DNA from: a virus | Strand: one strand, 5' to 3' | Length of the DNA stretch: 23,156 nucleotides | IMG/VR virus record: IMGVR_UViG_3300010885_070285 | Location: 1 to 23,156 of that record | Translations under genes and position numbers: made by a program | The notes under the pieces: model-generated | Told to the model about the DNA's origin: nothing | The model's database searches: none | Seen by the model: the letters and a program-made list of their open reading frames with translations, nothing else | Shown here: piece by piece, positions 644 to 17,333 of the stretch | Numbering within the stretch: the first letter of the stretch is position 1 | How the letters are laid out: each line of letters opens with the position of its first letter

Positions 644-1450
644 TTAATCCTCTATTACAAAAGTTCTGTTGTCTGGTTGTGGGAAAGATTGTTTAATATC
701 TTCTATGACTGTTTTGAGTTTAGCATAAATTATCTGTGATCTTGTTTTTGAAAAATCTTTAGTCTGCTTTATTCTTATCAGAGCCAATCCTTTACCCAAA
801 ATCAATCCTTGTTTTTTTTGATCATACGATATATTTTTAGCTAAAGCATCTTCTCCCCAAACAGGAAGAAAATGCGACGGCCCGTCTATTTCTATCGCCG
901 TATTCATTGTAGGAAGAAACAGGTCTATTTGCAACTTGGTATTTAGTAGGCTTTGCTCTTTGTGAAATTCCACCCTGTACCCATCTTGCAAAAGACTATC
1001 AAAAATAAACTTTTCTAGTTTTGATCCAACCTTGCTTGTTAAACGAACAGCGTCATTAGCCAATCTGATCATATTCTTTTTAGCTTCTTCGTCCATTCTT
1101 TCCCAAGCTTCTTTGCTCTTATTTTTTCTTTCTTGTAGAGTTTTACTATCTAATTCATCCCAAGATTTCAAAACTCCAATACCAATTTTATTTTTTTCTT
1201 CCACAGATCTTTCTTTGCCTTTTGTAGGATGTTGATGCTTGCCACTTTTAAGAGCATTCTTTTGAGCATCAGACTTATCTCTTATTGGTATTTTAAAAGA
1301 TACAGCGTCTCTTCTTATCTTATTTGCGTATGTCCCATACTCAGAAGCTATATCTGCAAAACTCTTTTTATTATCCAGATAGGACTTTCTTATAATACTT
1401 TCTTTTTCTGACTTAGATAATTTACTATACAAGATCTTTGATTGTTTCAT
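644..1450 (-). CDS. Vsr-like EDxHD nuclease with N-terminal DNA-binding region, probable free-standing homing endonuclease
   Basis: The 268-residue protein has two parts. Residues 1-140 are basic and helical, with an HTH-like segment at about 30-60 (SFADIASEYGTYANKIRRDA) and a Lys/Glu-rich stretch like the modular DNA-binding repeats of homing enzymes. Residues 145-250 match the Vsr-like fold. E165, D176 (QIDLFLP), H193 (GPSHF) and D210 (SYDQKK) fit the order of the EDxHD homing endonuclease family, whose prototype is I-Bth0305I from a phage recA intron. E187 (AIEIDG) sits 11 residues after the Asp, as in the paralogous-looking nuclease at 18161-18613. The start overlaps the end of the upstream gene by 26 nt, and the gene sits at the end of the glycosyltransferase block, a position typical of an inserted selfish gene. 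The family call rests on motifs; the homing role is inferred, and no cut or insertion site is evident. Confidence 0.7.
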   Translation of the reverse strand: MKQSKILYSKLSKSEKESIIRKSYLDNKKSFADIASEYGTYANKIRRDAVSFKIPIRDKSDAQKNALKSGKHQHPTKGKERSVEEKNKIGIGVLKSWDELDSKTLQERKNKSKEAWERMDEEAKKNMIRLANDAVRLTSKVGSKLEKFIFDSLLQDGYRVEFHKEQSLLNTKLQIDLFLPTMNTAIEIDGPSHFLPVWGEDALAKNISYDQKKQGLILGKGLALIRIKQTKDFSKTRSQIIYAKLKTVIEDIKQSFPQPDNRTFVIED

Positions 1451-1877
1451 ATGAAAAATCCTCCGATATACCTATTGGTTTTTTCCAGCACATATCATAT
1501 ATATCATAAAGTTGTTGATTCTTAGTTATTATATTCAGGTCTTTTGAATCGAATATTTCAGACCAATATTTAAAATTTTGGATATGTTTTGTCCAAGGCA
1601 ACTCATATGCATAATAAAATCTTTTTGATAGATTAATAAAATTTTTGCTCAATATTAACGACGGCATATCGAATACTACCAAATTGCCTTTGAAAAATTT
1701 GGCTTGGCTAATATGTAATATTGGTACTGAGTTATTTTCTACAATTTCTGAATAACTATTAAAAATACATATTTGACTATATGGATTATTATCAATAAGA
1801 GATTTTGCAGTTTTTAAAATATGTTCAGATGTTGTTGTATTCTCTAGTTTAATACATAGTATTCCCAGATCAATCAT
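1425..1877 (-). CDS. Hypothetical protein in glycosyltransferase cluster
   Basis: I do not recognise this 150-residue protein with confidence. It has alternating hydrophobic strands and helices (LGILCIKLE near the start, QICIFNSY, GNLVVFDMPSLIL, FYYAYELPW, LNIITKN) that read like one Rossmann-type half of a GT-B glycosyltransferase, but no substrate-binding motif is visible. It has no signal peptide or membrane segment. Its ATG overlaps the stop of the upstream glycosyltransferase-like gene by 4 nt, so it is translationally coupled to that cluster. A role alongside the neighbouring sugar-transfer proteins is inferred from position only. One possibility is that it supplies an N-terminal GT-B domain missing from the short protein next to it. 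Confidence 0.6.
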   Translation of the reverse strand: MIDLGILCIKLENTTTSEHILKTAKSLIDNNPYSQICIFNSYSEIVENNSVPILHISQAKFFKGNLVVFDMPSLILSKNFINLSKRFYYAYELPWTKHIQNFKYWSEIFDSKDLNIITKNQQLYDIYDMCWKKPIGISEDFSYETIKDLV

Positions 1878-2575
1878 GATTTTAATATCCTGTCTAAAAA
1901 TTTATTATATGTCTCTATGTCTTGAGATAATGAAATTTTATCTTCTATCAATTGTCCATCTTTTGGTCTTAAGATTTTTGTTCCACAACTTAATGCTTCT
2001 GGCAAATATAGATTATCAACCAACAAACAACTACTAGCTTTATTTAAAACTTCCGCCCTATCTTGTTCTGATAGTAAGCCAATATTTTGTTGATGTTTCA
2101 TCGACGATGGTCCAAAAATTCTTATATTAAATTTTTTATTTGGATATAAAACACTCAATAAATCATCATTAATATTTGAAGACCTATCAATAAAACATGG
2201 AATATATTTATCTCTCTGTTTATTTGTATTAAAGAATATATGTTTATTTATTAATTGTGGAATTTCTATCATAGAGCCTTTATCCGATTTTTTCCCGATA
2301 TTTAAGCAGTACTTACTTAGCGAGTCTATAACATTGTTATCTATAATATCATGATAAAGTATTATTTTTTTGCTTTTATTAAATTCATTTATATATTGAT
2401 ATATTTCATTAGTCATTAATGAAGAAACAAAAATATATGCATCAAAATCATATCTATAATGTATATGATACAGATTTCCATCAATTCGATCATTTATAAT
2501 AGTCAAATCATCAGATTCAATTATAGAAATATTATTAATAAATTTATCGTCGAATTCTTGTACAAATAATTTCAT
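1874..2575 (-). CDS. Glycosyltransferase-like protein (GT-B type, short)
   Basis: The 233-residue protein has a C-terminal segment resembling the nucleotide-sugar-binding half of GT-B enzymes: a strand-turn at FNIRIFGPSS, a helix with LSEQDRAEVLNKASSCLLVD, then LYLPEALSCGTKILRP. The ALSCGTKIL part matches the E-A-ascG-pvi pattern of GT4-like transferases. The N-terminal half is poorly conserved (YDFDAYIFVSSLM, KIILYHDII). At 233 residues it is much shorter than a usual two-domain GT-B enzyme of 350-400, so it may be a reduced enzyme, work with the adjacent 150-residue protein, or be inactive. It overlaps both neighbours by 4 nt, which indicates a tightly coupled operon. Donor and acceptor are unknown. 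Confidence 0.65.
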   Translation of the reverse strand: MKLFVQEFDDKFINNISIIESDDLTIINDRIDGNLYHIHYRYDFDAYIFVSSLMTNEIYQYINEFNKSKKIILYHDIIDNNVIDSLSKYCLNIGKKSDKGSMIEIPQLINKHIFFNTNKQRDKYIPCFIDRSSNINDDLLSVLYPNKKFNIRIFGPSSMKHQQNIGLLSEQDRAEVLNKASSCLLVDNLYLPEALSCGTKILRPKDGQLIEDKISLSQDIETYNKFLDRILKS

Positions 2576-3240
2576 ATAAATAGCTTAGCCTTTGATATAT
2601 CTTTTACTGTGTTAATTTTCATTATATTTTTTTTGCTTATGAAATGTTTATCAAATATAGTATTATGTTTTTCCATTAAAGTATTGATTAATTCAAAAAG
2701 AAATAATTGATCAATATTGTCGGAATCACAAATTTTTTTCATATTTTGAACAGCGTTATTATCTAAGAGGGCACATTCGGACCAGGGTGTTGGTAGATCA
2801 TAAAATAAATAATTGATTTCTTCCGATTCACCACATCCTATATTAAAATTTGTTTTTGGCTTGTCGATTAAAAATATTTTTGATTTAATAGAATTTTTAA
2901 TGCATAAATTTTTAAACAAAATACCGTTGCTAACTATTAATAGATTATTTGATGAGGTGTGATTATCTATAAACAGTTTTATTAGTTTTGCTTGATTGGT
3001 ATTTGTATAATTTGTATTTTCGATGACATGAACACGATTATATTTAGATATTACTTTCCTAATCTTATCGCACTCAAATCCTGCCCCAACATAAATATTA
3101 CAGTTATTATCTATTTTTTTAAATTGCTGTATCTGATAATCTAGTACTGTTGTTGAATTTTTGATTGTCAATAAGGCTTTGGATCCCAAGGATTTCATTC
3201 CTTTGGTAATTTCTGGTACTAGTAATAGTATATCAAGCAT
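2572..3240 (-). CDS. Nucleotidyltransferase-like protein (GT-A/NTP-transferase fold)
   Basis: The 222-residue protein begins LDILLLVPEITKGMKSLGSK, which reads like a degenerate nucleotide-binding loop of sugar or choline nucleotidyltransferases (hydrophobic strand, loop, then Lys followed by ALLTI). It continues with TTVLDYQIQQFKKI and NIYVGAGFECDKIRKVI, the usual second strand-helix unit. NTNYTNTNQAKLIKLF resembles the Y-x-x-TN segment of LicC-type cytidylyltransferases, and NNLLIVSNGILF occupies the place where the metal-binding acidic residue normally sits. The glycine-rich GxGxR signature and the usual Asp are not obvious, so activity is uncertain. If active it would make an activated sugar or alcohol for the adjacent transferases. 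It overlaps the previous gene by 8 nt and the next by 4. Confidence 0.55.
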   Translation of the reverse strand: MLDILLLVPEITKGMKSLGSKALLTIKNSTTVLDYQIQQFKKIDNNCNIYVGAGFECDKIRKVISKYNRVHVIENTNYTNTNQAKLIKLFIDNHTSSNNLLIVSNGILFKNLCIKNSIKSKIFLIDKPKTNFNIGCGESEEINYLFYDLPTPWSECALLDNNAVQNMKKICDSDNIDQLFLFELINTLMEKHNTIFDKHFISKKNIMKINTVKDISKAKLFI

Positions 3241-3973
3241 AGTATTTTATTAAAGGATTATCTATTTCTTTAAGAGCTAGTGTGATATCTGGGTTAACAG
3301 TGTCTTTAATCTCTTCATATGTTTTTAAGGATATGAATAGACCATCCGTCTCTTCTTGATTTCTATATAAAGCATGTGCTATTGGTTGTTTTATCGTGAC
3401 TATATAGTTTATGCTAGAAATATCTTTCTCCCATGAATCACAAGAAGACGCAAGATTAATCCATAGAAACTGATATTTATCTTTATTCGGATTAGTATTT
3501 AATACTATGCTAAGACTTTCTTGATAGTCAAATTCTTCCAACATATTATGTAGTTTCCAATCTATATTATTCTTTTCAAGATTTTTGAAAGAATTAATTA
3601 TACTTTCTGTATTATTCTTTTGATAAGTTATTATAGAAACAAATCCTGGCTTTATCGATAAATTGATTATCTTTTGTGCAATATCTGTGTGGTCGTTCTC
3701 CCCGAGAAAAACTATCAAATAATAGGTTGCTCTATTTTTAAAATATAAATGTTTTTTTAGATCTTCAATAGATCCTATTTTATCTTTATGTTCTTCATAT
3801 GCTTTCGTACTAAATGCGTATGGACAAAGATAGTTATGTATATAATAAAATTTTTCACTATTTATTATTAATTGTTTACTGTCTTTTATTTGATCAATAA
3901 TATTCATGACACAAGGATCTTGACTATCTGCATAGTCTGAGAAGATACATTTCTCACAATTTGTATTTTTCAT
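3233..3973 (-). CDS. Cys-cluster protein in glycosyltransferase block
   Basis: The 246-residue protein is not assigned to a family. Its N-terminus holds a Cys set (C6 and C9 in CEKC, C21 in DPCVMN, C50 in NYLCPYAFS) suited to bind zinc or an iron-sulphur cluster. The remainder has a possible GT-A-like or Rossmann start (ATYYLIVFLGENDHTDIAQK, FVSIITYQKN) and a helical C-terminus ending NPLIKYYA. No DxD metal motif of GT-A enzymes is clear. It sits between the methyltransferase-like and nucleotidyltransferase-like genes, overlapping them by 4 and 8 nt, so it is co-translated with the cluster. A binding or sugar-modifying role is inferred from context alone. Confidence 0.55.
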   Translation of the reverse strand: MKNTNCEKCIFSDYADSQDPCVMNIIDQIKDSKQLIINSEKFYYIHNYLCPYAFSTKAYEEHKDKIGSIEDLKKHLYFKNRATYYLIVFLGENDHTDIAQKIINLSIKPGFVSIITYQKNNTESIINSFKNLEKNNIDWKLHNMLEEFDYQESLSIVLNTNPNKDKYQFLWINLASSCDSWEKDISSINYIVTIKQPIAHALYRNQEETDGLFISLKTYEEIKDTVNPDITLALKEIDNPLIKYYA

Positions 3974-4395
3974 ATTCCTACTCTTTGAATGGTAATGTAT
4001 GTCTTAAAAAAATCTGTAGAGTTTTCTAATTTTGTGACTTTGAATTCTTGGTTTGATTCAAATATAAGTGTGATTTGCTTTAATGAAAAAATAGACTTAA
4101 CTCCGTTTATAAAACCAAGCATTTCCTTATCCGATAATGCATTATTAATATATTGTCTAGAAATATGCTTGAAATTATTTATTGTAAGAGTTACTAATCC
4201 ATTTGGTCTAATTTTTTCTTTTATTTCTTCCAAGATATTATTTGCTACTGATGAATCAAAATATTCTAAGCATCCACAATATATATGGTCTATTGAATAA
4301 TTAACAAGATTAGATAGATCATTGATTTCTATGTTGTCGAATCCCTGTATTGTATCTTGTTTCTTGATCGTATATAGATTTATTAATCTGTTCAT
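3970..4395 (-). CDS. Reduced SAM-methyltransferase-like protein
   Basis: The 141-residue protein resembles the second half of a class I methyltransferase domain: NYSIDHIYCGCLEYF matches the post-motif region (SiD-iy-shvLEHf), and NILEEIKEKIRPNGLVTLTI matches the L-e-rvLkPgG-l-i signature. A segment around HISRQYINNALSDKEMLGFING follows. The glycine-rich SAM-binding motif I is missing: the N-terminus (NRLINLYTIKKQDTIQGFDN) has no GxGxG. SAM binding is therefore doubtful, and the protein may be a structural remnant or partner. Usual family members are 180-250 residues. It overlaps neighbours by 4 nt on each side inside the glycosyltransferase block. Confidence 0.55.
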   Translation of the reverse strand: MNRLINLYTIKKQDTIQGFDNIEINDLSNLVNYSIDHIYCGCLEYFDSSVANNILEEIKEKIRPNGLVTLTINNFKHISRQYINNALSDKEMLGFINGVKSIFSLKQITLIFESNQEFKVTKLENSTDFFKTYITIQRVGI

Positions 4396-5273
4396 AGTAA
4401 AAGAGGTTCCTTTATTCTGTTAATAATGGTATCATAGATTTCATCTTGAAATTTTACTAGATCATACTTTTTAGCTAAAAAACTAATACGATCTTTAATT
4501 TTATCCACATTACGTATTTTTAAAGTTGATTCTATTATTAGATGAATTTTATTAAAATCATCTATATTTATGATTCCTTCTTCTTCTGGTACCGATGAAG
4601 ACAAAACATCACATCCGCAAGATAAAGCTATTAAAGAATCGAAAGTTTTTTTTATAGATATACAAATATTATATTCTTTTAAAGTGCTAATAATTTTTTC
4701 ATAAGAAATATTTTGATCAATATTTATAATGCCAGCATCTGGAAAATATTTCTTTACATAAGAATATAGTATATCCACCGATTTTGCATTATTGGGATTC
4801 AGTAAAACCACAGACTTGCGTGGTTGATCAAAATCAATTTTTACTTTTGGAATCCCATACGGTATATATTTACCATTATCTATAGACCATTCAGATTTTA
4901 ATGACTCATTAGTATATATTTTAAATGAATCGCCCAATCTGTTCTGTAATAAGAATTTATCTTCTTTTTTAAGTGCTGGGTCTGGTGATTCGTGGAAAAA
5001 TATCATATCCAGGATGTGTTCGCTTTTATAAAAACTAGCGTTAGACGTATACTGTACCGGATCGTTGTTCCAATATATGTCATAACAAAACATTCCACGA
5101 GTACGGATATACTCAGATTCATACATAAATGACATATCTAAATGTTTTATTAAAAATTTATCAAAAATACTATTACTATAATCATATAATATCTTTATAT
5201 CTTTTCTTTTAGGATCACCAGATAAGTAGAGTATAGGACTCAAAATATTCTGCATTATTGTAGAATATGACAT
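4392..5273 (-). CDS. Divergent glycosyltransferase-like protein (GT-B type)
   Basis: The 293-residue protein looks like a divergent GT-B enzyme. The N-terminal half contains ILDMIFFHESPDPALKKED and YTNESLKSEWSIDNGKYIPYG, the kind of segment that ends the acceptor domain of GT4 proteins. The C-terminal half starts SVVLLNPNNAKSVDILYSY and ends with a nucleotide-sugar-like motif at TFDSLIALSCGCDVLSSSVP, similar to ALSCGTKIL in the protein at 1874-2575, so the two may be paralogues. The canonical E-x7-E is not intact. It has no signal peptide or transmembrane helix, so it is cytoplasmic. It overlaps the upstream gene by 19 nt and the downstream one by 4 nt. Confidence 0.6.
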   Translation of the reverse strand: MSYSTIMQNILSPILYLSGDPKRKDIKILYDYSNSIFDKFLIKHLDMSFMYESEYIRTRGMFCYDIYWNNDPVQYTSNASFYKSEHILDMIFFHESPDPALKKEDKFLLQNRLGDSFKIYTNESLKSEWSIDNGKYIPYGIPKVKIDFDQPRKSVVLLNPNNAKSVDILYSYVKKYFPDAGIINIDQNISYEKIISTLKEYNICISIKKTFDSLIALSCGCDVLSSSVPEEEGIINIDDFNKIHLIIESTLKIRNVDKIKDRISFLAKKYDLVKFQDEIYDTIINRIKEPLLL

Positions 5274-6301
5274 ATTGTTTCTCCTAAATTTTTATTATTA
5301 TTTTTTTTCATTCTATTATTTTTATTATTTTGTTGATTTTTTATATCTATCATTTTTTTACAGAGGTCCGCTGTCGGTATTGAGGTCATTAAATCTTCAA
5401 GATCATTTGATGTATCTATACTTATTGCCGGTATTTGTATACTAGTAGTATTATGTTTGTTTATAATATTTTTTTCTGATTTAACAAAATATTTCTCATA
5501 AAGATACTGTGAATAATCATCGTTCAGAGATAGGAAACAATCAAAAGTATTTAATGATGCTATAACTGATTCTGTCTCTAGTCCATTAAAAATAAATACA
5601 ATATTATCATAGTCTATAATTTTAAGTTTTTGTTTTGTTTCTTTATAATAATTTTCTAAATCTTTTTTATCTTGCTCTGTACCTTTACAGCATATTAAAA
5701 GATTAACATTAGCATAAGAACGAAATGATATAAGAAAAGAATTAATGATTTTCTGAATAATCGAAATATTCTGTTTATAGGTTCCTATAAAACCAAAAAT
5801 AAAATTGTCTCCAATTTTTTCTCCAAGATTATATCTTTTATTAGAATGCTGCGATATTTCTTTATCTGAAAATGATTCATCAAAAACAACTATAGGAGAT
5901 GTTATATTTGATCTAATTAATATTGTTTTATCATGATCGTTGTCAACTAATACGTAGTCGAATGAATTAAGCTTCTGATAATTTTGATTATAGGAGACTT
6001 TTGATATTCTATTATCGATAATGGGTATTGCTATATTTTTAACAGATTTTTGTATTGAGAGGTATTCTACTGGTGCATGTTGTATTAGTGAATTTAATTG
6101 AAATTTTTCTGGAATATTCTCTATAAAATTAAGTATACCAGTATCATCTTGAGTTACAGACAGATCATCTATATATAATGGTCTACCTATAATAGACATT
6201 TTTTTTATGATAAAGGCTCTATGGATAGACTCTAAATAAATTTTTGATAGTTGCCCCATATAATCATATTGTCTATATGGACCAATGAATATTGTTGTCA
6301 T
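5255..6301 (-). CDS. Glycosyltransferase-like protein with Asn/Lys-rich tail
   Basis: This 348-residue protein has a GT-B-like outline. An N-terminal domain opens TTIFIGPYRQYDYMGQLS and includes NSFDYVLVDNDHDKTIL. A linker precedes a second Rossmann domain at DNFIFGFIGTYKQNISIIQK, ANVNLLICCKGTEQDKKDL and VFIFNGLETESVIASLNTFDCFLSL. The GFIGTY and FNGLETESVIASLNTFDCF segments are in the order seen in GT4 enzymes. The final E-x7-E region is not conserved. Residues of about 322-340 are a low-complexity Asn/Lys run (NQQNNKNNRMKKNNN) encoded by an AT-repeat-like stretch. The gap to the upstream glycosyltransferase is 8 nt. Function in sugar transfer is inferred and the substrate is unknown. Confidence 0.6.
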   Translation of the reverse strand: MTTIFIGPYRQYDYMGQLSKIYLESIHRAFIIKKMSIIGRPLYIDDLSVTQDDTGILNFIENIPEKFQLNSLIQHAPVEYLSIQKSVKNIAIPIIDNRISKVSYNQNYQKLNSFDYVLVDNDHDKTILIRSNITSPIVVFDESFSDKEISQHSNKRYNLGEKIGDNFIFGFIGTYKQNISIIQKIINSFLISFRSYANVNLLICCKGTEQDKKDLENYYKETKQKLKIIDYDNIVFIFNGLETESVIASLNTFDCFLSLNDDYSQYLYEKYFVKSEKNIINKHNTTSIQIPAISIDTSNDLEDLMTSIPTADLCKKMIDIKNQQNNKNNRMKKNNNKNLGETICHILQ

Positions 6302-6309
6302 AATAGTTC

Positions 6310-7974
6310 TTATGTGTTTGCCTTGATTGATGCATATTGTATGAAGTCGTCATTGAATTTAATATTTTCAGATCTAACCTTATCTGAATGATTTATATTG
6401 TCTATGTATGTATTTATATATGTTACTATATCATCATATTCATGCTTAGTAATATTAGACCCATGCATAGAAAAGCCATAATCTACATATTGTAACAAAG
6501 TTAGTATGCTCATAGATGATATCTTGTCTATATCTTTTAGATGACTAAAGCATAATTTTGCTGTATTATCAAAATGCTGACTGCTATTTGTGTCTATTTC
6601 TTTTTCAATTTTATTCATAAATGTTGCTGAACTGTGCCAGTCTGATCTATAGGTACTGTCTATATGATCCAAATGATTTTCCCATTTTTTTGCTATGTCA
6701 TCCCAATTATAGTATTTTTCTGTAAGCTGTCTAGTCTTTTGGCCTATAGCCGATCTCTCTGAGTCTGACATATTGCATAATTTAACTATTTCATTTGCTA
6801 ATTGTTCATTATCTGGATAAACTCTTATTGCTTTTGTTTCAAGTTCTTTAAAGTATGATTTTGGACTAATAGGAACAGCATCTAGCTTTTTTACAATATC
6901 GCACATTGCACTATAATCAACTGTAAATATTGGTAATCCGCAAGCTCCTGCTTCTGTTTGTGGGCATCCAAAACCTTCGCATATGGAATATTGTACATAA
7001 GCATCGAATAGATTATAGACCTTAGCTAGCTGTTCAGTTGATATTCCATTTGTTACAGAGGAGAATGTCATGCTTTTTTCCAAACATCTTGAACATACTT
7101 TTTGTGGTCCTACAAAGACACTTGAACTCATATTACCACAACGTCTACATAGATATGTAAATAGTACTCTGTTAGCTAGTCTGTGTTCTTTTAAAAGTTC
7201 TGGCAGATCCCAACCAGCATCAGGATAACTTGTATGAATATACAAATATATTTTTTTACCCAGCGGATTATTTTCTTCTTTCAAGATATCCATAGCTTTT
7301 CTAAAAGAAACCATAAGTTCTGGTATCAATTTTCTTTTTTGATTTCTCATAACTGATCCTATGACTATGCTGTCATTAGGTATGTCATACTCTTCTTTTA
7401 GAGATTTTTTGTCTTTTACTGGATGAAACGTAAAGAGATCAACCCCAGGGGATGCGGTATCTATATAATTTATCTTGCCTGAGCTTTGATCTTTTAGAAC
7501 ATTGGCACCCCAATCAGAATAAGTAAAAATACTGTCGGCAGAGAGAAATGTGTCTATCCACTCTTCCTGCTGTGGAGCGGAGTCAACTGTTGGCATAAGT
7601 ATCCAATGAAAGAATTTTCTTAAAGGCGATAGTGCTTGGTACGAACTCATCCAATAATCCCTAATATCTATCACAACATCTGGCTTAAAATCTAATAAGA
7701 CTTTTTCAAATCTCCATCTACCAAATTGATTATCTCCCCTCGAAGTATACTCTTTGTGTCTTGGATCATCTTCCTTGACTGCATTAGCATAGTATCTCCA
7801 AGGTATATTCTTATCTCTTGCATCATTTACCATGCCATAAGAAGCAAATTCTGCTATGTCATACTTGTTAGTCTTATACAGTCGAGATAGGATTTCTCTA
7901 GTATAAATTGAAAAGCCAGAGCTAAGAAAGCTGGCTTCAGAAACCATGAGTATTTTAAGTTTTGATTTATTCAT
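6310..7974 (-). CDS. GT4-family glycosyltransferase with inserted zinc ribbon
   Basis: The 554-residue protein is the clearest glycosyltransferase of the cluster. The N-terminal domain starts KILMVSEASFLSSGFSIYTR with the SGF-Y acceptor-side loop and contains PDVVIDIRDYWMSSY and DSIFTYSDWGANVL. The donor domain begins IVIGSVMRNQKRKLIPEL (Arg/Lys pair for the diphosphate) and has ICEGFGCPQTEAGACGLPIF with the retaining GT-B E-x7-E pair E333/E341. Between them is a four-Cys insertion, C276-x2-C279 and C294-x2-C297, which makes a zinc ribbon not present in ordinary GT4 enzymes. About 130 C-terminal residues after the catalytic core are helical and unassigned. It is the first gene after the ssb terminator. 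No Shine-Dalgarno sequence is visible before its ATG. It transfers a sugar from a nucleotide donor; the acceptor (virion, DNA base or host glycan) is unknown. Confidence 0.85.
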   Translation of the reverse strand: MNKSKLKILMVSEASFLSSGFSIYTREILSRLYKTNKYDIAEFASYGMVNDARDKNIPWRYYANAVKEDDPRHKEYTSRGDNQFGRWRFEKVLLDFKPDVVIDIRDYWMSSYQALSPLRKFFHWILMPTVDSAPQQEEWIDTFLSADSIFTYSDWGANVLKDQSSGKINYIDTASPGVDLFTFHPVKDKKSLKEEYDIPNDSIVIGSVMRNQKRKLIPELMVSFRKAMDILKEENNPLGKKIYLYIHTSYPDAGWDLPELLKEHRLANRVLFTYLCRRCGNMSSSVFVGPQKVCSRCLEKSMTFSSVTNGISTEQLAKVYNLFDAYVQYSICEGFGCPQTEAGACGLPIFTVDYSAMCDIVKKLDAVPISPKSYFKELETKAIRVYPDNEQLANEIVKLCNMSDSERSAIGQKTRQLTEKYYNWDDIAKKWENHLDHIDSTYRSDWHSSATFMNKIEKEIDTNSSQHFDNTAKLCFSHLKDIDKISSMSILTLLQYVDYGFSMHGSNITKHEYDDIVTYINTYIDNINHSDKVRSENIKFNDDFIQYASIKANT

Positions 7975-7992: not shown

Positions 7993-8019
7993 TAAAAATA
8001 GGGGCGTTTTACCGCCCCC
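7993..8019 (-). terminator. Rho-independent terminator after ssb
   Basis: Read on the minus strand, a GC stem GGGGCG / CGCCCC (8013-8018 with 8001-8006) closes a six-base loop and is followed directly by TATTTTTATC. It lies about 33 nt past the ssb stop and before the glycosyltransferase gene. In a genome this AT-rich, a 6-bp pure GC stem plus T-run is a convincing intrinsic terminator. It would separate abundant ssb transcripts from the glycosyltransferase operon, with read-through supplying the latter. Confidence 0.88.
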
Positions 8020-8051: not shown

Positions 8052-8432
8052 TCAGAAAGCAACGGACTCAGCAGGTTCCGCTTGTTCGCCCTTGCCCTGC
8101 TTTGACAACTTAGTAATCTTAGAGAAATTATTAACTCTAACCTTTAGACTACTATGCTTAACGCCATCCTTTTCCCACGTATCATTGCGTAGAGATCCTT
8201 CTACTAGAACCAGATCACCCTTCTTAAATGAAGATCCTATGATCTCAGCACCACTGTCCCATGCTTCGCAATTAATAAATGAAGTTACCTTATCCTTTTC
8301 ACCACTAGCCTTAGTATATTCCCTAGAGACAGCTACGGTAAAATTAACAACAGAAGTCTGCTTGCCGCCAGTATTAACGACTCTTAGCTCAGGATCTCTT
8401 GCTAAATTACCTCTCAAAATCGTGATATTCAT
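8052..8432 (-). CDS. ssb: Single-stranded DNA-binding protein
   Basis: The 126-residue protein has the bacterial-type OB fold: MNITILRGNLARDPELR at the start, VVNFTVAVSREY, TSFINCEAWDSGAEIIGSSF, KGDLVLVEGSLRNDTWEKDG and SSLKVRVNNFSKI. It coats single-stranded DNA at the fork and in recombination. The tail after the fold is short (about 20 residues) and ends AEPAESVAF, less acidic than the DDDIPF-type tip of bacterial SSB but keeping the terminal Phe used for partner docking. A good ribosome-binding site (AAGGAG, 8438-8443) lies 5 nt before the ATG. The gene has its own sigma-70 promoter and terminator, as expected for a protein needed in large amounts. Confidence 0.95.
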   Translation of the reverse strand: MNITILRGNLARDPELRVVNTGGKQTSVVNFTVAVSREYTKASGEKDKVTSFINCEAWDSGAEIIGSSFKKGDLVLVEGSLRNDTWEKDGVKHSSLKVRVNNFSKITKLSKQGKGEQAEPAESVAF

Positions 8433-8483: not shown

Positions 8484-8511
8484 ATGATAATCGATGGCAT
8501 GTGATTGTCAA
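8484..8511 (-). promoter_or_regulatory. Sigma-70 promoter for ssb
   Basis: On the minus strand a perfect TTGACA (8506-8511) is followed after 16 nt by TATCAT (8484-8489, 5 of 6 to consensus). It faces ssb, whose start is about 50 nt downstream. The -35 box contains the TGA stop codon of the upstream polymerase gene (8508-8510), so the promoter is built into the gene end. Confidence 0.85.
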
Positions 8512-10130
8512 GATCTCGGCGTAAAACACTTATCGACAACCAAACCATCCTTTGTTTTTGTTTTGTTGCCAATAAAAATTAGCACATTACCTTGGAATAG
8601 ATGGTGCTTATATGTCTCTAATTGTTCCGGGAAAAAGATAACAGAATCCAATAGACCATAAGCATCTTCAACACTAACAAATGCCATTTCTTGTCCTGGA
8701 TTTTTTCCCTTTTTTGTCTTAATAATATTTACATTGCTAACTTCACCGGCTAAGATTATTTTTTCTGATAGTAGCGTAGTTTTAAATTCTTTACAATTAG
8801 TATTGGTCATGCTAATATCATAAGAGTCTAATTTAGAGCAAGATATGGCTACACCCAGAAAAGAGTTTTCTGAATCAGATAACCATTCTATCTTATCTGT
8901 TAATGAATAAGGAGGATGCTCCAGTGATCTTATTAAGTTAGAAATTGGCTCTATTCTCTTTTTTGTTATCTTTTCATTAAGCAATGCTTGTAGTACGACC
9001 TTTATATCTGATGTAGGCTTATCACTTATAAGGCCCGCAAATAGTTCTAACTCTTTCTTGGTTAGAGATGACAATATTTCGTAATGAAAAAGTATTTCAG
9101 TTCTATTTTTTCTAAAATAATCCAGAGCGCCACTACCAACAAGAGCTTTTGCAGCTGTTGAATTAATATTCAGTAATATGTGACAGATGCTTTGAATATA
9201 TCCTAATGAACTAATATCTTTTTGCTCATTAAGTTCTAGCAACTTTTTAAATACAGAATCTCCAACACCTTTGATATCTGTTAATCCAAAATATATATTC
9301 TTATCTTTAATGAAGAAATTCTTATTAAGATTGCGTAGATCTGGTAATCTAACATCAATACCCATCTCATTAGCATTTCTTGCCAATTCTTTTATCTCTT
9401 GCTGAGGATCTATCTTGTCTTTAGCAAACTTTAAATATGATGCAAAGAATATCCTGGAGAAGTGTGCTTTTGTATAAGCTGAGAGATATGCGTTCATAGC
9501 ATAACTTATACTGTGTGACTTATTGAAAGAGTATCTTTGTGATTTTTCAATCCAGCCAAAGATTTCTTCTGCCTGATCCTCTGTTACGATATTCTTTTCT
9601 TTGGATCCTGTTAAGAATTTTTTCTTCAATTTAGCCATTTCTTCTGGCTTCTTTTTTCCAATAGCCTTTCTTAACATATCAGCTTCCTGCAGATCAAATC
9701 CTGCAATATCATGGGCGATCTGCATACTCTCTTCTTGGTATATCATCTCTCCATATGTTGTCTTTAATGCTGGTTCTAATGCCATATGAAAATAGTCAAT
9801 ACTTTCCAATCCATTTTTCTTATCTATATAATGATTGGTAATACTCTTGCCATCTCTTACAGACTCTAAGCATCCTGGTCTAAGAATAGCTATCAACCCA
9901 GATAACTGTTCAATATTTTCTGGCTTAAGTTTTTTAGCCATCATTTGCCCGAGCCTAGACTCCAACTGAAAACATCCTTTAGTATTACCTTCGGATATCA
10001 AGTCCCAAGTTCTGTGACACTCCAAATTAAGATTCTCTATATTAGCAGAGAAATCTATTTTTGGAATATCGCCAGAATTGTCTATTACTTTAAACTTACA
10101 ACCGCAATCAAACGCAAAAAAATCAGACAT
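8508..10130 (-). CDS. dnaE: DNA polymerase III alpha subunit, C-terminal part (fingers, HhH, OB fold)
   Basis: This 540-residue protein is the second half of a family-C replicative polymerase. It opens with an extra leader, MSDFFAFDCGCKFKVID, then joins DnaE homology at TWDLISEGNTKGCFQLESR. Then come GLIAILRPGCLES, TYGEMIYQEESMQIAHDIAG, EADMLRKAIGKKKPEEM and FNKSHSISYAMNAYLSAYTK (fingers and DNA-binding surfaces), an HhH unit at LTDIKGVGDSVFKKLLEL and a C-terminal OB fold (KIILAGEVSNVNIIKTKKG to VLIFIGNKTKTKDG). The catalytic aspartates are in the partner protein encoded upstream. The ATG at 10130 is preferred over a TTG at 10136 because AAGGGG lies 10 nt before it. It overlaps the exonuclease gene by 8 nt. 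No beta-clamp motif is evident by eye. The two halves must presumably assemble. Confidence 0.93.
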   Translation of the reverse strand: MSDFFAFDCGCKFKVIDNSGDIPKIDFSANIENLNLECHRTWDLISEGNTKGCFQLESRLGQMMAKKLKPENIEQLSGLIAILRPGCLESVRDGKSITNHYIDKKNGLESIDYFHMALEPALKTTYGEMIYQEESMQIAHDIAGFDLQEADMLRKAIGKKKPEEMAKLKKKFLTGSKEKNIVTEDQAEEIFGWIEKSQRYSFNKSHSISYAMNAYLSAYTKAHFSRIFFASYLKFAKDKIDPQQEIKELARNANEMGIDVRLPDLRNLNKNFFIKDKNIYFGLTDIKGVGDSVFKKLLELNEQKDISSLGYIQSICHILLNINSTAAKALVGSGALDYFRKNRTEILFHYEILSSLTKKELELFAGLISDKPTSDIKVVLQALLNEKITKKRIEPISNLIRSLEHPPYSLTDKIEWLSDSENSFLGVAISCSKLDSYDISMTNTNCKEFKTTLLSEKIILAGEVSNVNIIKTKKGKNPGQEMAFVSVEDAYGLLDSVIFFPEQLETYKHHLFQGNVLIFIGNKTKTKDGLVVDKCFTPRS

Positions 10131-10818
10131 TCGCAAATGACCCCTTAAATTTTATCTTGTTAGATAAATTCCTATGCAATTTTAAAAACCTAATTAATAT
10201 ATCAGCAGTATCTTTTACGTCTTTCAGAGCATCATGAGCACCTTCTTTTGATATACCTAAATAATCTCTAAGATTATCTAGAGTATAATTTTTAAGCTCA
10301 TTGTTACCTTCAAACCAATAAAATACCATATTCATCAAGTCTACAACATCTCTAGGATAAAATAGACTAGACTTGCCCTCTTTATTGAGATTGTCATATT
10401 TTGTACTAAGTCTCTCAATAATTTTCAGATCAAACCTATTTATGTTATATCCCGCAGCAATGGGAGCACTAAAACAAGATTTTCTTTCGGATCTTGTATG
10501 ATACATATCCAGGTATGATGTAAACATTTTCCATCCATGATCCTGCTTCTGATAAGACTTCCATTCTTTTAGAATATCCTCTTTAGAAGAACCTCTCACC
10601 TTTGCATGAAAATCCAACACATCACTATCTGCATAGTCATATTCTGGATTATCTATCAATGCTTCTGGCTTAATACTAATATTAAACTCGGAGTCTGGCA
10701 CTACTTGTAGTTTAAGAGGATCTATAATTATGGCAGCTATCTGAACAGGACTACATTTCTCTGGATTAATACCGTCAGTCTCCAGATCGAAAACACAAAT
10801 TTTTTGAAAATTAGGCAT
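10123..10818 (-). CDS. DnaQ-like 3'-5' proofreading exonuclease (DEDDh)
   Basis: The 231-residue protein carries the three exonuclease motifs in order: Exo I KICVFDLETDG (Asp and Glu of DxE), Exo II GYNINRFDLKII (Asp), and Exo III AHDALKDVKDTADIL with the His/Asp pair of the DEDDh class. This is the epsilon-subunit type that removes mispaired 3' ends for a family-C polymerase. It lies between the two halves of the polymerase, overlapping the C-terminal half by 8 nt, and its start overlaps the preceding small gene stop by one base (TAATG). This indicates matched synthesis with the polymerase. Its C-terminal tail is short and basic. A role in RNA or other DNA trimming cannot be excluded. Confidence 0.92.
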   Translation of the reverse strand: MPNFQKICVFDLETDGINPEKCSPVQIAAIIIDPLKLQVVPDSEFNISIKPEALIDNPEYDYADSDVLDFHAKVRGSSKEDILKEWKSYQKQDHGWKMFTSYLDMYHTRSERKSCFSAPIAAGYNINRFDLKIIERLSTKYDNLNKEGKSSLFYPRDVVDLMNMVFYWFEGNNELKNYTLDNLRDYLGISKEGAHDALKDVKDTADILIRFLKLHRNLSNKIKFKGSFANV

Positions 10819-10994
10819 TAATTGACCACCACCATTAGGTTATCGGTAAAAAATACTCTTGAGTTAGCGTCATCTACCAAATGAGCATTAATAGACTGAC
10901 AACAACTAACTTTTACAGCATTTACCTTGGTATACTCAGAACCATTTACGCTAAAATTTTCTCCTACCGCTACTTCACCGAAAGTCTTTTCCAT
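10818..10994 (-). CDS. Small conserved-looking phage protein, 58 residues
   Basis: A 58-codon frame from ATG (10992-10994) to TAA (10818-10820) fills the gap between the two flanking genes. The protein begins MEKTFGEVAVGENFSVNGSE and continues YTKVNAVKVSCCQSINAHLV. It reads as a small all-beta protein with a central CC pair, a pattern I associate with small phage proteins of unknown function. Its ATG lies 2 nt after the polymerase N-part stop, and its stop shares a base with the exonuclease ATG, which is strong evidence for a real translated gene in the polymerase operon. Function is unknown; position suggests a polymerase- or exonuclease-linked factor. Confidence 0.75.
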   Translation of the reverse strand: MEKTFGEVAVGENFSVNGSEYTKVNAVKVSCCQSINAHLVDDANSRVFFTDNLMVVVN

Positions 10995-10996
10995 GG

Positions 10997-12817
10997 TTAT
11001 TCTCCATTTTTTAATAGGTCAGAAATAGTCATAATCTTATCTAGCATAGCTACGCCTAGAATATCAAATTTAATTACACCCAAAGATTCCAGGTCCTGCA
11101 TTTCCATGCCCGCAATAAGTTGATCATTTTTTGAATCATAAATCATGGGGCAAACATTACTCAATTCATCTATACTAATTACAATACCAGCAGCGTGTTT
11201 TGATTGATTAGATTTAGTTCCTTCCAAACGAATAGCCTGTTCAAAACGCTTGGCCAGAGGACCGGCTAATTCTCCTTCCTCATTAATATAGCACCACTCC
11301 TTGAGTTTGTCAACATTGTTTTCTAATGCCCAACGAATAATGGATGCTTCGCCAGTATCTTCTTTCATTTCTTGCAATTCGTCTGCAATTTTTGCTTCAT
11401 CCGGGATGTATTTTGTTATACGATTCATCTCTTCAAATGCCACGTTGCCATATACTCTTAATACTTCCTTTAAGGCTCCACGGCCTTTCATAGTATTATA
11501 AGTTATCATTTGAGATACCTTATTGCTTCCATACTTATTTTTAATATATGAGATGATTTCTTCTCTTTTGTTAATTGGTACATCAACATCTATATCTGGC
11601 ATGGAAATACGGTCAGCAGTATTTCGACCAGAATTATAAAATCTACTGAACAATAGATCATACTTTATAGGATCTATAGCAGTAATTCCTATTAAGTAGG
11701 ATACTAAACATCCAGCAGCAGATCCTCTTCCTGGTCCCGGAAGCCAATTATTAGACTTTACATTGTTAAGTATGTCTTGAATGATAAGAAAGTAGCTGGA
11801 CAGCCCAGCGCCCTGCAAAACATCCAATTCTTCCTTAATTCTATCAACATAGATTTGTTGTTTATCCTTTGGAATATTATTGGCTATCTTATCTCTCCAA
11901 CCATTTCTGCATAATTCTCTTAGATATTCATCTGGATTAAATCCTTTTGGACATTCAAAATTTGGAAGAGCAGGTTTATTTAGAATATCATATGACTCTA
12001 TCATAGAATCTACATGATTAGTATTATCTATTTCTTCTTGAGTGTGTAAATCAGCCATTTCTTCTGGAGACAATATGTAATAATTATCTGACTTAAAAAA
12101 ACATCCCATAGGAACATCTTCATTATTAAGTATCTTTTTATTGATATCAACAAGAGTAGTCTTTAGATTATTACATAAAAGGATCCTTTGATCAACAGCA
12201 TCAGATTTATCGCAATAATGAGCATCTGGTGTGCATATTACTTTTGTTTTAGTTATTGATCCAAGTTTTCTTATCAAATCTGTTAACTGAATCTGTTCTG
12301 GTATATGTTCTCTATCCATGAGTTGAGACTCTAGAAAGAAATTATCTTTACCAAACATATCCTTCATCTTAGCTATCATTTCAATAGCTTCTTTTTCGGA
12401 ATCATCTTTGGATCTTAGTATCTTATTTGCTAATACTGATCCTAAGTGACCACAAAAACCAATTAGATTACCATCTAAGAATTCTTGTAATCTATTAAAG
12501 CTCAATCTTGGCTTATGATAAAAATTATGCTTACTATTAGATTCAGATATTATTCTGATTAAACTAGCCCATCCCTTTTTATTCTTAGCTAAAACTATAA
12601 AATGTCCAAGCTTACTATTTTCTTTAGTCTTTATGTGAGAATCATCTTCGCTGATATATAGTTCACAACCTAAAATGGGTTTGATACCATTAGATTTCAT
12701 TGACTGGTAAAACTGCACAGTTCCAGATATTGTTCCGTGGTCAGTAATTGCACACGAAGTTACTCCAAGAGTATTACATCTTTTTGCAATTTGTGCAGGC
12801 TTAGATAGTCCATCCAA
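10997..12817 (-). CDS. dnaE: DNA polymerase III alpha subunit, N-terminal part (PHP and palm)
   Basis: The open frame from a TTG at 12817 gives 606 residues with the PHP domain followed by the family-C palm. PHP ligands visible are D26/H27 (ITDHGT), H124 (FCGHLG) and D198/H200 (PDAHY). The palm has GPGRGSAAG (361-369) and the catalytic aspartates D408 and D410 in MPDIDVDV and D585 in VIKFDILG. The protein stops 21 residues after the third aspartate, so all three catalytic residues are here while fingers and C-terminal domains are in the protein at 8508-10130. The TTG is probably not the authentic start: homology continues upstream through HYSLL, and then, in another frame, through YIPLHVHS (12838-12882). 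No ribosome-binding site precedes the TTG. See the separate element entry. Confidence 0.9.
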   Translation of the reverse strand: MDGLSKPAQIAKRCNTLGVTSCAITDHGTISGTVQFYQSMKSNGIKPILGCELYISEDDSHIKTKENSKLGHFIVLAKNKKGWASLIRIISESNSKHNFYHKPRLSFNRLQEFLDGNLIGFCGHLGSVLANKILRSKDDSEKEAIEMIAKMKDMFGKDNFFLESQLMDREHIPEQIQLTDLIRKLGSITKTKVICTPDAHYCDKSDAVDQRILLCNNLKTTLVDINKKILNNEDVPMGCFFKSDNYYILSPEEMADLHTQEEIDNTNHVDSMIESYDILNKPALPNFECPKGFNPDEYLRELCRNGWRDKIANNIPKDKQQIYVDRIKEELDVLQGAGLSSYFLIIQDILNNVKSNNWLPGPGRGSAAGCLVSYLIGITAIDPIKYDLLFSRFYNSGRNTADRISMPDIDVDVPINKREEIISYIKNKYGSNKVSQMITYNTMKGRGALKEVLRVYGNVAFEEMNRITKYIPDEAKIADELQEMKEDTGEASIIRWALENNVDKLKEWCYINEEGELAGPLAKRFEQAIRLEGTKSNQSKHAAGIVISIDELSNVCPMIYDSKNDQLIAGMEMQDLESLGVIKFDILGVAMLDKIMTISDLLKNGE

Positions 12818-12829
12818 AAGTGAGTAGTG

Positions 12830-12921
12830 TGACCCACTTAAGAATGGACGTGCAGAGGAATATACCTCTTATTCACGTCCATCTTTTATTTTCCTTCTTT
12901 TGGTATTTTGGGGGTGGGTCA
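12830..12921 (-). promoter_or_regulatory. Nested RNA stems enclosing the dnaE start site
   Basis: In the minus-strand transcript, TGACCCAC (12914-12921, in the 5' leader) is perfectly complementary to GTGGGTCA (12830-12837, just after the TAA of the short frame). Inside it, ATGGACGTG (12874-12882, containing the start codon) pairs with CACGTCCAT (12844-12852), and within that AGAGG pairs with CCTCT around a six-base loop (12854-12869). The ribosome-binding site lies in the single strand between outer and inner stems. The structure could control start-codon access, as the T4 polymerase operator does, or assist recoding at the TAA. Stem prediction is by eye. Confidence 0.65.
12838..12882 (-). 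CDS. dnaE: Out-of-frame 5' segment of dnaE encoding PHP motif 1
   Basis: From an ATG at 12882 with a ribosome-binding site (AAGGA, 12892-12896) the frame reads MDVNKRYIPLHVHS then TAA (12838-12840). The LHVHS part is the HxH metal-binding motif that begins the PHP domain of DnaE. The matching continuation, HYSLLDGLSKP, is encoded from 12829 leftward in another frame. A canonical junction would read HVHSHYSLLDGL, and 11 nt (TAAGTGGGTCA) stand between the Ser and His codons. Either ribosomes cross this gap, or the polymerase is made from the downstream TTG without HxH, or the sequence contains an error. Confidence 0.7.
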   Translation of the reverse strand: MDVNKRYIPLHVHS

Positions 12922-12941
12922 ATGAGAAACTGACTCGATGT

Positions 12942-12969
12942 ATTGTACGATACGAACGGGTGTTGTCAA
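12942..12969 (-). promoter_or_regulatory. Strong sigma-70 promoter for the polymerase operon
   Basis: On the minus strand a perfect TTGACA (12964-12969) and TACAAT (12942-12947, 5 of 6) are separated by 16 nt. The expected transcript start is near 12935, about 53 nt before the dnaE ATG at 12882, so the leader includes the left arm of the outer RNA stem. The arrangement is the same as at the ssb promoter. Confidence 0.88.
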
Positions 12970-12981
12970 GCGACCGAAATA

Positions 12982-14064
12982 TCATTCTGTGGTTCCGGGT
13001 GCTTTGTACTTTGCAAATGAGTGATTCTTATTCTTATACTCTTTTACAACAGAATCCATACCATTCAGATCAATATCATGTTTAATTTGTTCACATTTTG
13101 TCATTGTTGAACCAAGACTGCAAGTTTGATTTTCTCTATATTCTACTTGCGGTTGTATGTGAGTATTGTCGAATGTTGTTTTACCAAAATGGCATAATTT
13201 TGTACACATCCAAGTTTTATTAAGTCTTGGCCTTCTTGTATTCTTAACCACCTCAAATTTTTGACGTAACATATCCTCTGTCTTAGAAAGATCTGATTTA
13301 TCAAAACATATCGAAAAAGGTCCACCGTCATTGATAAAGTAGATAGAAAATATAATGTGGTCTATGTGAGGATACAAATGACTAATAGCATAATGATATA
13401 TTCTTAACTGTGGATCAGTCTGTAGTTTTTCTAAGGTCTTTTCCTTACCAGTCGCCCAATCTAATCTTCTACCAGTTTTCCAGTCAATAATTTCAATAGT
13501 ATTGTCGTTTACTAAGGTTATAAGGTCTATAGTACCCTTAATACCCAAATTACCTTCTAGCTTACCTTCTGGAGTATCATAAGAATATGCTGCCCAAGGT
13601 TTTTTAATCTCGATATCAAAATGTTGCTCTGGACATAGTATATGTCTATTCCTTGGATCGAACATACCATCATTAAATTCTATTGCTTTGTAAACCCATG
13701 CGTGACAATCTTTATAGTCTTTCAATGCCCACTTGTGATGAGAATTAGCTTCTGAATAATGCTTATATACTTCCTCTATAATAACATTCAAGCTATAGTT
13801 TGAGATATTTACTTTTCCTACCACATCATCATCGATAACTTTAACATCATCTTGCTGTGCCTTTTTTATAACTGCTAGTATTTCTAAGACTTTATGAACT
13901 ATGGTTCCTTTATCGGCTTTTTGGCCCGATGGACCACGATAGCCAAGAACATATTCGAGAAAATATTGCTGCTCGCACATTGAGTGTGTGTTATATGAAC
14001 TACTTCTAAAGTATGTGACTATAATGGTAGAATCTCCTGTAAAAATTTTTGTATATCCATGCAT
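12982..14064 (-). CDS. PD-(D/E)XK nuclease of the RecB/Cas4 type with probable Fe-S cysteines
   Basis: Counted from the ATG at 14064 (360 residues), the protein has the RecB-nuclease layout: YFRSSSYNTHSMCEQQYFLEY, KGTIVHKVLE (H57), GNLGIKGTIDLITL (D180), EIIDWKTGRR (D194, K196) and a helix with DPQLRIYHYAI. Cys residues C30 near the start and C287, C291, C315 and C324 near the end resemble the one-plus-three arrangement that holds a 4Fe-4S cluster in Cas4 and AddB nucleases. It would be an exonuclease or end-processing enzyme for phage recombination or replication. The start is uncertain: ATG 14064 overlaps the kinase gene by 46 nt and has no ribosome-binding site, whereas ACAGGAG sits 8 nt before an in-frame ATT at 14023-14025. 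No terminator follows before the polymerase promoter. Confidence 0.88.
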   Translation of the reverse strand: MHGYTKIFTGDSTIIVTYFRSSSYNTHSMCEQQYFLEYVLGYRGPSGQKADKGTIVHKVLEILAVIKKAQQDDVKVIDDDVVGKVNISNYSLNVIIEEVYKHYSEANSHHKWALKDYKDCHAWVYKAIEFNDGMFDPRNRHILCPEQHFDIEIKKPWAAYSYDTPEGKLEGNLGIKGTIDLITLVNDNTIEIIDWKTGRRLDWATGKEKTLEKLQTDPQLRIYHYAISHLYPHIDHIIFSIYFINDGGPFSICFDKSDLSKTEDMLRQKFEVVKNTRRPRLNKTWMCTKLCHFGKTTFDNTHIQPQVEYRENQTCSLGSTMTKCEQIKHDIDLNGMDSVVKEYKNKNHSFAKYKAPGTTE

Positions 14065-14741
14065 TGATCATATATGTTCATATTTTCATTATCGCAAATA
14101 TAATCAAAATTAGACCAATCATAGTTTTCTTTATCCAATGCTACTTCAGCTTTGGCTGATGAATTAAAAGGATTTCTGGTTAATCTAAGTACCTTACCAC
14201 CCTCTGTCTTAATACTATCAGCTTCGTTTGGGAATCTACAGTCAGCGATAATAGCTATGGAAGGTTTTTCTTCTTTGATCTTTTTTATGGTTGCTTCTAC
14301 CCAAACATTATTTTTAAGAGTACGAAAAATATTGGTTCCAATAATTTCCATAGCCTCTCTTCCAGAAAGCTGTTTATCATCCCATGTTAAGTCTGTTAAG
14401 GTATTTTTTTCTTCATCTGATCCATAACATTGTTCATACGTTAGTCCCAGGATATTCATACAAATATCTTTTTTTAGTGGATCAGCAAAACTATATACTT
14501 TAATGTGTTTCTCTAATTTTTCAACTACCTTATTTAGTATAAAGTCATTTCTATTAATATTAGATAGATCGAATATTCCAGCATAGTTTCTATCATTTAA
14601 AAGATCCGAAACTACTATTTGTCCATTTGGATTTATTGATACCTTTTGAGCTATTTCTAATTGAGCAATAAATAGGGAGATTATAAAATTGCTCGATGTA
14701 CTCTTGCCCGACTGCTTTTTTCCTGAAAATCCTATGATCAT
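14019..14741 (-). CDS. Deoxynucleoside monophosphate kinase (T4 gp1-like)
   Basis: The 240-residue protein starts with a P-loop, IIGFSGKKQSGKSTSS (residues 2-17). YSFADPLKKDICMNILGL, SGREAMEIIGTNIFRTL and PSIAIIADCRFPNEADSI follow, which together match phage dNMP kinases of the T4 gene 1 type, as does the closing RNPFNSSAKAEVALD region. It phosphorylates deoxynucleoside monophosphates with ATP to feed phage DNA synthesis. In other phages the family often handles modified dNMPs as well, but nothing here shows a modified base. Its start overlaps the primase stop by 4 nt and its end overlaps the next gene. Length is usual for the family. Confidence 0.9.
   Translation of the reverse strand: MIIGFSGKKQSGKSTSSNFIISLFIAQLEIAQKVSINPNGQIVVSDLLNDRNYAGIFDLSNINRNDFILNKVVEKLEKHIKVYSFADPLKKDICMNILGLTYEQCYGSDEEKNTLTDLTWDDKQLSGREAMEIIGTNIFRTLKNNVWVEATIKKIKEEKPSIAIIADCRFPNEADSIKTEGGKVLRLTRNPFNSSAKAEVALDKENYDWSNFDYICDNENMNIYDQCMDIQKFLQEILPL
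14023..14040 (-). promoter_or_regulatory. Ribosome-binding site before a possible ATT start of the RecB-like nuclease
   Basis: ACAGGAG (14034-14040) stands exactly 8 nt before ATT (14023-14025), which is in frame with the nuclease. Starting there would give IVTYFRSSS, with Met as first residue, and a 7-nt overlap with the kinase gene, typical of this operon. Confidence 0.45.
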
Positions 14742-17330: not shown

Positions 17331-17333
17331 AAT

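Follow-up and report, generated by a model that had tools for sequence, protein, structure and literature searches.

A putative reduced glycan operon with a GT4 glycosyltransferase in the replication region of uncultured phages

Gene content of the block

The stretch of DNA analysed here, referred to as the window, is the IMG/VR virus record IMGVR_UViG_3300010885_070285, with a length of 23,156 bases, and our subject is a block of eight genes that sits among its replication genes. The block consists of eight open reading frames (ORFs) on the minus strand, running from position 7974 down to 1425 and named g1 to g8, of which g1 encodes a glycosyltransferase (GT) of the GT4 family. The block and its neighbours recur in a longer record, G001 (151,782 bases), where their proteins are 100% identical to those of the window. 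An earlier reading made from the letters of the window (the sequence-only reading) had described eight genes at 1425-7974, almost all joined by overlaps of 4-19 nucleotides (nt), as a self-contained and AT-rich glycan-building pathway of stripped-down enzymes. The eight ORFs are indeed found there and six junctions overlap within that range, by 19 nt for g2/g3, 8 nt for g5/g6 and 4 nt for each of g3/g4, g4/g5, g6/g7 and g7/g8; g1 and g2 are, from their coordinates, separated by an 8-nt gap. The features are collected in Table 1.

As had been proposed, the product of g1 has the marks of a full GT4 enzyme. It reaches 40.7 bits against PF00534, for which the curated cut-off is 26.4, and phrog_2170 matches its residues 7-436. 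The EX7E motif and the four Cys are kept in 89/89 loci, that is, in all loci having both g1 and g2, which form the set for the motif counts and outside which the minimal blocks and the locus L293, discussed later, therefore fall. Its score above the Pfam cut-off and its EX7E motif unite g1 with the GT4 family (PF00534, BshA-like), from which it differs by a Cys4 insert, a C-terminal extension of ~115 residues and its location behind the SSB gene. The g1 profile finds BshA chains at 3e-6 for the whole sequence, with no single stretch passing, and in the GT4 of L300, a deep-branching locus, the four-Cys set was not seen by eye. By its sequence g1 is a GT4 glycosyltransferase, which would catalyse a sugar-transfer reaction.

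Some GT4 proteins of related loci have unusual lengths or insertions. Those of L078, L130 and L138 have ~950 amino acids (aa; 3/89), and at least two GT4s contain an intein-like insertion right at the catalytic motif, just before the Cys-Glu of CEGFG, which is an unusual site and enzyme for an intein. The GT4s of the distant phages L038-L047 possess a long C-terminal extension and lie, in several cases, directly downstream of a polymerase gene; the extension of L041 weakly matches heptosyltransferases (9.5e-4).

The window sequences of g2-g8 taken alone gave no usable match to Pfam or PHROG. Through the profiles of their families, g2, g3 and g7 are nevertheless placed as GT-B relatives. Four of 21 g2 orthologues match Glycos_transf_1 (E up to 1), the best of them at 1.8e-14, and EX7E is kept in the g2 of 8/89 loci, the window g2 having other residues there. 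Profile-profile comparison linked g3 to g7 (E 1.1e-5), g1 to g3 (2.4e-4), g1 to g7 (1.3e-3), g2 to g7 (2.8e-3) and g1 to g2 (3e-3), the lowest of 72 controls against replication families being 0.018; an unexpected pair, g4 with g7, scored 3.8e-3. Moreover, the g3 profile recognises at 8.2e-13 a canonical GT4 (itself 2.8e-19) at the same position in the locus L334. The second motif Glu of g7 is kept in 75/81 loci, and the g7 orthologue of L300 matches Glyco_trans_1_2 at 3.2e-4 (21.1 bits, below the cut-off of 25).

The last of the divergent GT-B-like proteins that had been expected, g8 (150 aa), was identified by predicted structure. Its AF2 model has a predicted local distance difference test (pLDDT) value of 95.1 and aligns 145/150 residues with a GT-B transferase (VIA Z 13.7, root-mean-square deviation (rmsd) 2.7). 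The model comprises an N-terminal half and a closing helix only, the second Rossmann half being absent from it, and Foldseek alone was weak for this protein, its best match having E 0.031 and unrelated catalases being scattered among the others. As modelled, g8 is a GT-B acceptor half.

Two further proteins announced by the sequence-only reading, one with a Cys cluster and one resembling nucleotidyltransferases, correspond to g5 and g6. The N-terminal domain of g5 contains four Cys that are invariant in 66/66 loci, and the AF2 model (pLDDT 94.7) predicts in addition that residues 80-246 adopt the GT-A fold (VIA Z 14.6, 159 residues aligned, rmsd 2.8 to mannosylglycerate synthase; Foldseek 9.3e-6), so that g5 is, on its model, a Cys4 domain followed by a GT-A domain. 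No DxD was found in the window protein at the strand inspected, and some DxD, at any position within residues 111-205, occurs in 28/66. By its profiles g6 is a nucleotidyltransferase relative: 6/21 orthologues match NTP_transferase (E up to 1), the best at 3.5e-4. The Arg/Lys/Asp set of g6 is intact in 6/84 loci, and the window g6 has Gly at both the catalytic Arg and the metal Asp.

Finally, g4 had been described as a methyltransferase-like protein devoid of motif I. The absence was borne out, with GxGxG in 0/87 loci, but the likeness itself is weak. Only weak Pfam matches were obtained, the best non-g4 match of its profile resembles, by eye, a S-adenosyl-methionine (SAM) methyltransferase (E 0.0084) and the next, at 0.011, is a non-methyltransferase. 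Against the PDB, the top listed row was a leucine-rich-repeat protein (0.0054, no passing stretch), with a methyltransferase at 1.9; g4 may thus be called only weakly methyltransferase-like. Profiles of g2, g3, g5, g6, g7 and g8 gave no significant match to PDB sequences. The folds found in the block, by structure-based search for g5 and g8, are related ones.

Table 1. Features of the block and its immediate surroundings in the window
Feature	Position	Strand	Basis or remark
SSB gene	8052..8432	-	Pfam SSB 4e-25; upstream of GT4 in block-bearing loci
Terminator-like hairpin, GC-rich, then T tract	8001..8018	-	between SSB and GT4
g1, GT4 glycosyltransferase (by sequence), 554 aa	6310..7974	-	PF00534 2.4e-10; phrog_2170 2.9e-25
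g1 Cys4 (residues 276-297, CxxC...CxxC), zinc-ribbon-like	7084..7149	-	four Cys in 89/89 loci
g1 EX7E catalytic motif (residues 333-341)	6952..6978	-	intact
g2, GT-B (GT4) relative by profiles, EX7E lost	5255..6301	-	Glycos_transf_1 matches of orthologues
g3, GT-B relative by profiles	4392..5273	-	profile matches to g1 and g7; canonical GT4 counterpart in L334
g4, 141 aa, weakly methyltransferase-like, without motif I	3970..4395	-	weak Pfam matches
g5, Cys4 N-terminal domain and predicted GT-A-fold domain (~80-246)	3233..3973	-	AF2 model, structure alignment
g6, nucleotidyltransferase relative by profiles, catalytic Arg and Asp lost	2572..3240	-	profiles
g7, short GT-B relative by profiles, second motif Glu kept	1874..2575	-	profiles
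g8, predicted stand-alone GT-B N-terminal (acceptor) half and closing helix	1425..1877	-	AF2 model, structure alignment
Endonuclease-like gene closing the block	644..1450	-	phrog_559 1.7e-12; overlaps g8 by 26 nt

Base composition, conservation and layout for expression

The whole block had been taken as AT-rich. The G+C content (GC) is 0.239-0.270 in g2-g8, 0.333 in the GT4 gene and 0.287-0.409 in the other genes of the window, and GC at third codon positions (GC3) is 0.146-0.22 in g2-g8 against 0.247 in the GT4 gene. Since the GC of the GT4 gene resembles that of the replication genes, the AT-rich part is limited to 1425-6301. The block does differ in GC from its flanks, and it is the lowest-GC 4.9-kb stretch of G001 (0.256 vs a median of 0.338 over 1134 windows inside 20-kb pieces, with windows spanning piece borders outside the scan). 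Among related loci, block GC is under that of the rest of the locus in 84/84 (mean 0.274 vs 0.334), the drop being small in L300 (0.375 vs 0.400).

A search with the GT4 protein returned 46 viral loci, most of which repeat the gene order of the window, and flanking genes are more identical between loci than g2-g8. After wider locus searches, each represented by its best 80 matches, the order SSB, GT4, g2-g8, endonuclease was complete in 77 distinct loci, of which 58 include g5 and 19 lack it; a locus was distinct when not identical in g1 and g6, and near relatives are therefore counted. The other 21 entries of this tally are cut contigs, distant GT4s, and L032 and L129, which are complete with two g1 matches. 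In one scan of IMG/VR a GT4 relative was encoded in 529 of the 563 matched stretches (E up to 1e-3; the best 80 of 563 viewed), which makes it probable that the phages with this operon are abundant. A search with the polymerase fragment beside SSB of a distant member gave, among its best 80 loci, 53 with more than 8.5 kb downstream, in which GT4 was present in 52/53 and g6 in 53/53; these loci were not dereplicated and partly overlap the earlier set.

All block genes present in four close pairs of loci (g5 in two pairs only) have ratios of nonsynonymous to synonymous change (dN/dS) of 0.03-0.24, a range that leaves out the deoxynucleotide monophosphate (dNMP) kinase of L010-L011 (30% identity, contig edge) and the exo gene of L009-L015 (dS undefined). 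Three of the four pairs are partly saturated in synonymous changes. The least saturated one is L014-L017, which lacks g5; there the values are 0.05-0.16 for the block, 0.12 for the dNMP kinase and 0.005-0.06 for most replication genes, and dS is alike in the block and its flanks. Relaxed protein constraint together with low expression in AT-biased genomes would fit the low GC of the block better than import.

The region between SSB and GT4 contains a hairpin with a T-rich tail in 75/82 loci, found in 0/82 mononucleotide-shuffled copies and in 0/80 polC2-SSB spacers. The hairpin is conserved in shape, not in sequence. In the loci inspected the GT4 start lies closely behind it, which leaves little space for a promoter, and the block is presumably expressed by read-through of the hairpin. 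At the junctions of the block in 76 loci, 536/589 overlap and 579/589 are at most 10 nt apart, a count that took the longest possible starts and so leans towards overlaps.

The endonuclease-like gene is homing-endonuclease-like yet conserved and not sporadic, overlapping g8 in 76/76 loci (longest possible starts). The protein beyond it, a putative recombination protein, has neither Pfam nor PHROG support. At 8508-12817 the window has DNA polymerase III alpha divided over two ORFs that flank an exonuclease gene, and in L015, L019, L020, L021, L031 and L036 the match to the N-terminal part of the polymerase begins 1-2 kb further upstream, suggesting an insertion in or beside the gene.

No close cultured member of this group turned up in the phage collection. 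Among the isolate matches listed, the polymerase is at most ~33% identical and RecA at most 29%, GT4 reaches ~23% in 3 records, g5-like proteins were not found and g6 had one partial match, at 0.005. Moraphages are large aquatic phages in which four core orthogroups are putative glycosyltransferases (PMC12619734). Their description names a 'family B' marker gene (PMC12619734), by our reading a DNA polymerase, whereas the window encodes PolIII-alpha. In the open-access literature we recognised no description of the operon reported here.

Intact relatives and the history of the motifs

The suggestion that several enzymes are stripped down is supported by deep-branching relatives, whose version of the operon includes an intact g2, g3 or g6. 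L300, one of the three deepest branches of the polymerase tree, has both the g2 and the g6 motifs intact, with g2 matching Glycos_transf_1 at 3.4e-16 and g6 matching NTP_transf_3 at 1.6e-15. In the thinned polymerase tree both motifs are absent in 38/38 rows of the clade of the window; this is a quick tree, in which neither the branching order at the base nor several other forks are settled. The number of state changes is at least three for g2, one for g6 (in that set only) and at least seven for g5 on the GT4 tree, and at least three for g2 and at least two for g6 on the polymerase tree of 43 rows including L334.

L334 is a long branch placed at the unresolved base of the polymerase tree. Its order is SSB, a sigma-like gene, GT4, g2, g3, g4, g5, a GT2 (1.9e-25) and g6, followed by a GT (PF13524, 1.3e-22), an epimerase (1.1e-31), an unassigned 349-aa protein and a GT25 (1.7e-10). 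Its g2 has EX7D instead of EX7E, and the 19.6 kb that were read gave no match to g7, g8 or the endonuclease. Behind SSB, at 8986-19295, L334 has a full glycan cluster that includes GT4s, a GT2, a nucleotidyltransferase, an epimerase and a GT25. The idea of a self-contained glycan-building pathway suits this relative but fails for the window, where there is one intact transferase motif, no intact nucleotidyltransferase motif and no methyltransferase motif I, and whose record gave no epimerase family match.

L334, with its full cluster and canonical g3, lends the sequence-only reading its best support; a glycan-building ancestor is the simplest history, and the block of the window is most likely a reduced descendant of a glycan-building operon, kept for another reason. 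Its motifs would then have passed from intact to worn. Alternatively, L334 may have grown by gain of enzymes.

In deep lineages a small sigma-70-like gene is placed directly upstream of GT4. It was found in L300 at 12123-12641 (PF04542 1.8e-10) and, by eye, in L334 at 8507-8998 and in L232 at 5369-5830.

Possible roles of the block

We are inclined to see here, with a probability of roughly 0.43, a reduced phage glycan operon in which a live GT4 is accompanied by g2-g8 as non-catalytic partner subunits. An ancestral glycan-biosynthesis operon would have followed SSB in the genomes of a large clade of uncultured phages, and in the lineage of the window g1 alone would still transfer sugar. The products of g2-g8, which are derived from or similar to glycan enzymes and are short of complete catalytic motifs, may have taken partner roles in acceptor binding, donor binding, scaffolding or specificity. 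They would probably be produced jointly through translational coupling, in small amounts governed by how often transcription reads through the hairpin that follows SSB. Seven genes that are under selection with incomplete, lost or never-found signatures suggest parts of a larger machine, and an intact transferase translated in step with motif-poor partners suggests a complex.

Known systems offer analogies for such an arrangement. GtfA/GtfB consists of an active GT4 and an inactive GT-B partner, and shares with the proposed arrangement the principle that a live GT is joined by an inactive protein of GT fold. The GtfA model TIGR02918, whose cut-off is 574.6 bits, scores 25.2 here, and the block has several different worn folds, not one partner. 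Alg13/Alg14 represents the split GT-B type. The predicted g8 is likewise a free acceptor half, with g7 as a candidate for the donor-half partner, again as an analogy and not a membership.

Several observations weigh against this preferred reading. The history of g6 is not a single loss, because its intact Arg/Lys/Asp reappear in L288 and L289, elsewhere within the larger clade. The near-invariant loop ITKGMKSxG of g6 leaves room for an unrecognised activity. What is left of the block in L293 (12127-14308) is a g5-like gene, g6 and the endonuclease, with nothing else between the last and SSB, the g5-like protein being 44% identical to that of L288 (2e-81) though the g5 profile misses it, and no GT4 was found in its 152,676-base record; g5-like and g6 genes can therefore persist without GT4. 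There are also minimal blocks without detectable g2-g4 and g7 which, with the at least seven changes of g5, argue against a complex of fixed stoichiometry.

It is rather doubtful that the whole operon, with its several GT-B relatives, a GT-A, a nucleotidyltransferase and a probable methyltransferase, has gone further and turned into co-translated pseudoenzyme subunits around GT4, with a link to the replication genes and a new job to do. If this were true, the new job of the assembly could be, for example, the modification of DNA or of a host replication or defence factor.

An explanation to which we give somewhat less credit is that the block adds sugar to a virion protein or to a glycan of the host envelope. 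L334 has a complete surface-glycan-like cluster, which fits L334 but not the reduced set of the window. A distant GT4 homologue (23.7% identity) is found in Synechococcus phage S-CBS4 in a trio with galactosyltransferase and methyltransferase genes beside the portal gene, although this structural-gene context and the other partners are unlike those of the block. G001 has, at ~125-145 kb (L068, L069), a second and ordinary glycan cluster with a gene that by eye is UDP-galactopyranose-mutase-like. The block, however, sits among replication genes, and no polymerase or flippase-type protein was recognised in it. Thr/Pro-rich virion linkers were rejected as the acceptor, given that their tracts are independent of the presence of GT4: 39 were counted in G028, which is devoid of GT4, and 0 in the block-bearing G020, with 57 in G001, 19 in G008, 23 in G022, 59 in G026, 23 in G005 and 1 in G027. 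Structural proteins of G001 (e.g. 44277, 2439 aa) carry many mucin-like linkers of this kind.

Glycosyltransferases in the replication regions of T4-like phages glycosylate DNA bases. That the block sugars the bases of phage DNA to evade restriction seems to us unlikely, though the fixed position between SSB and the endonuclease-like gene in the replication region, the nearby dNMP kinase and the Cys4 domains of g1 and g5 would agree with it, as would the distant L041, where genes for a carbamoyltransferase (2.6e-63) and for an Anp1-like transferase (9.5e-5) lie among those of the polymerase. A pyrimidine hydroxymethylase of the thymidylate synthase (TS) family was nevertheless found in 0/21 records, which may be fragments, while the control was positive in 9/14 genomes, and ThyX was present in 11/21 records of a partly different set. 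A search for TET/JBP oxygenases matched 0/21 records, its control being likewise silent.

Still harder to accept is a complete pathway with non-canonical catalysis, in which g2-g8 are enzymes using other residues. Purifying selection, the conserved g6 loop and the second Glu of g7 speak for such activity, but the losses of Arg and Asp in g6 and of EX7E in g2, together with the missing SAM motif of g4 and donor half of g8, speak against it. We regard as improbable that the worn folds merely bind signal nucleotides, as nucleotide or nucleotide-sugar sponges acting against host defence. Such a role would draw on former nucleotide-binding folds and would be in line with evolution faster than that of replication genes, with variable gene content and with the retention of g5-like and g6 genes in L293; in most loci, however, the genes overlap and keep a strict order, which is untypical of independent sponges, and the intact catalytic motif of GT4 in every locus with g1 and g2 is likewise at odds with it. 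Recent import of an AT-rich island, or gene decay, as the low GC of the window might suggest, can be practically dismissed, since low GC, gene order and purifying selection are clade-wide, lengths are conserved, block dS is like that of the flanks and dN/dS is well under 1.

The block and its closing endonuclease-like gene define a nine-gene segment for expression and testing. Genes that are under selection without complete motifs, beside relatives in which these are intact, provide a natural series on enzymes becoming structural or regulatory parts.

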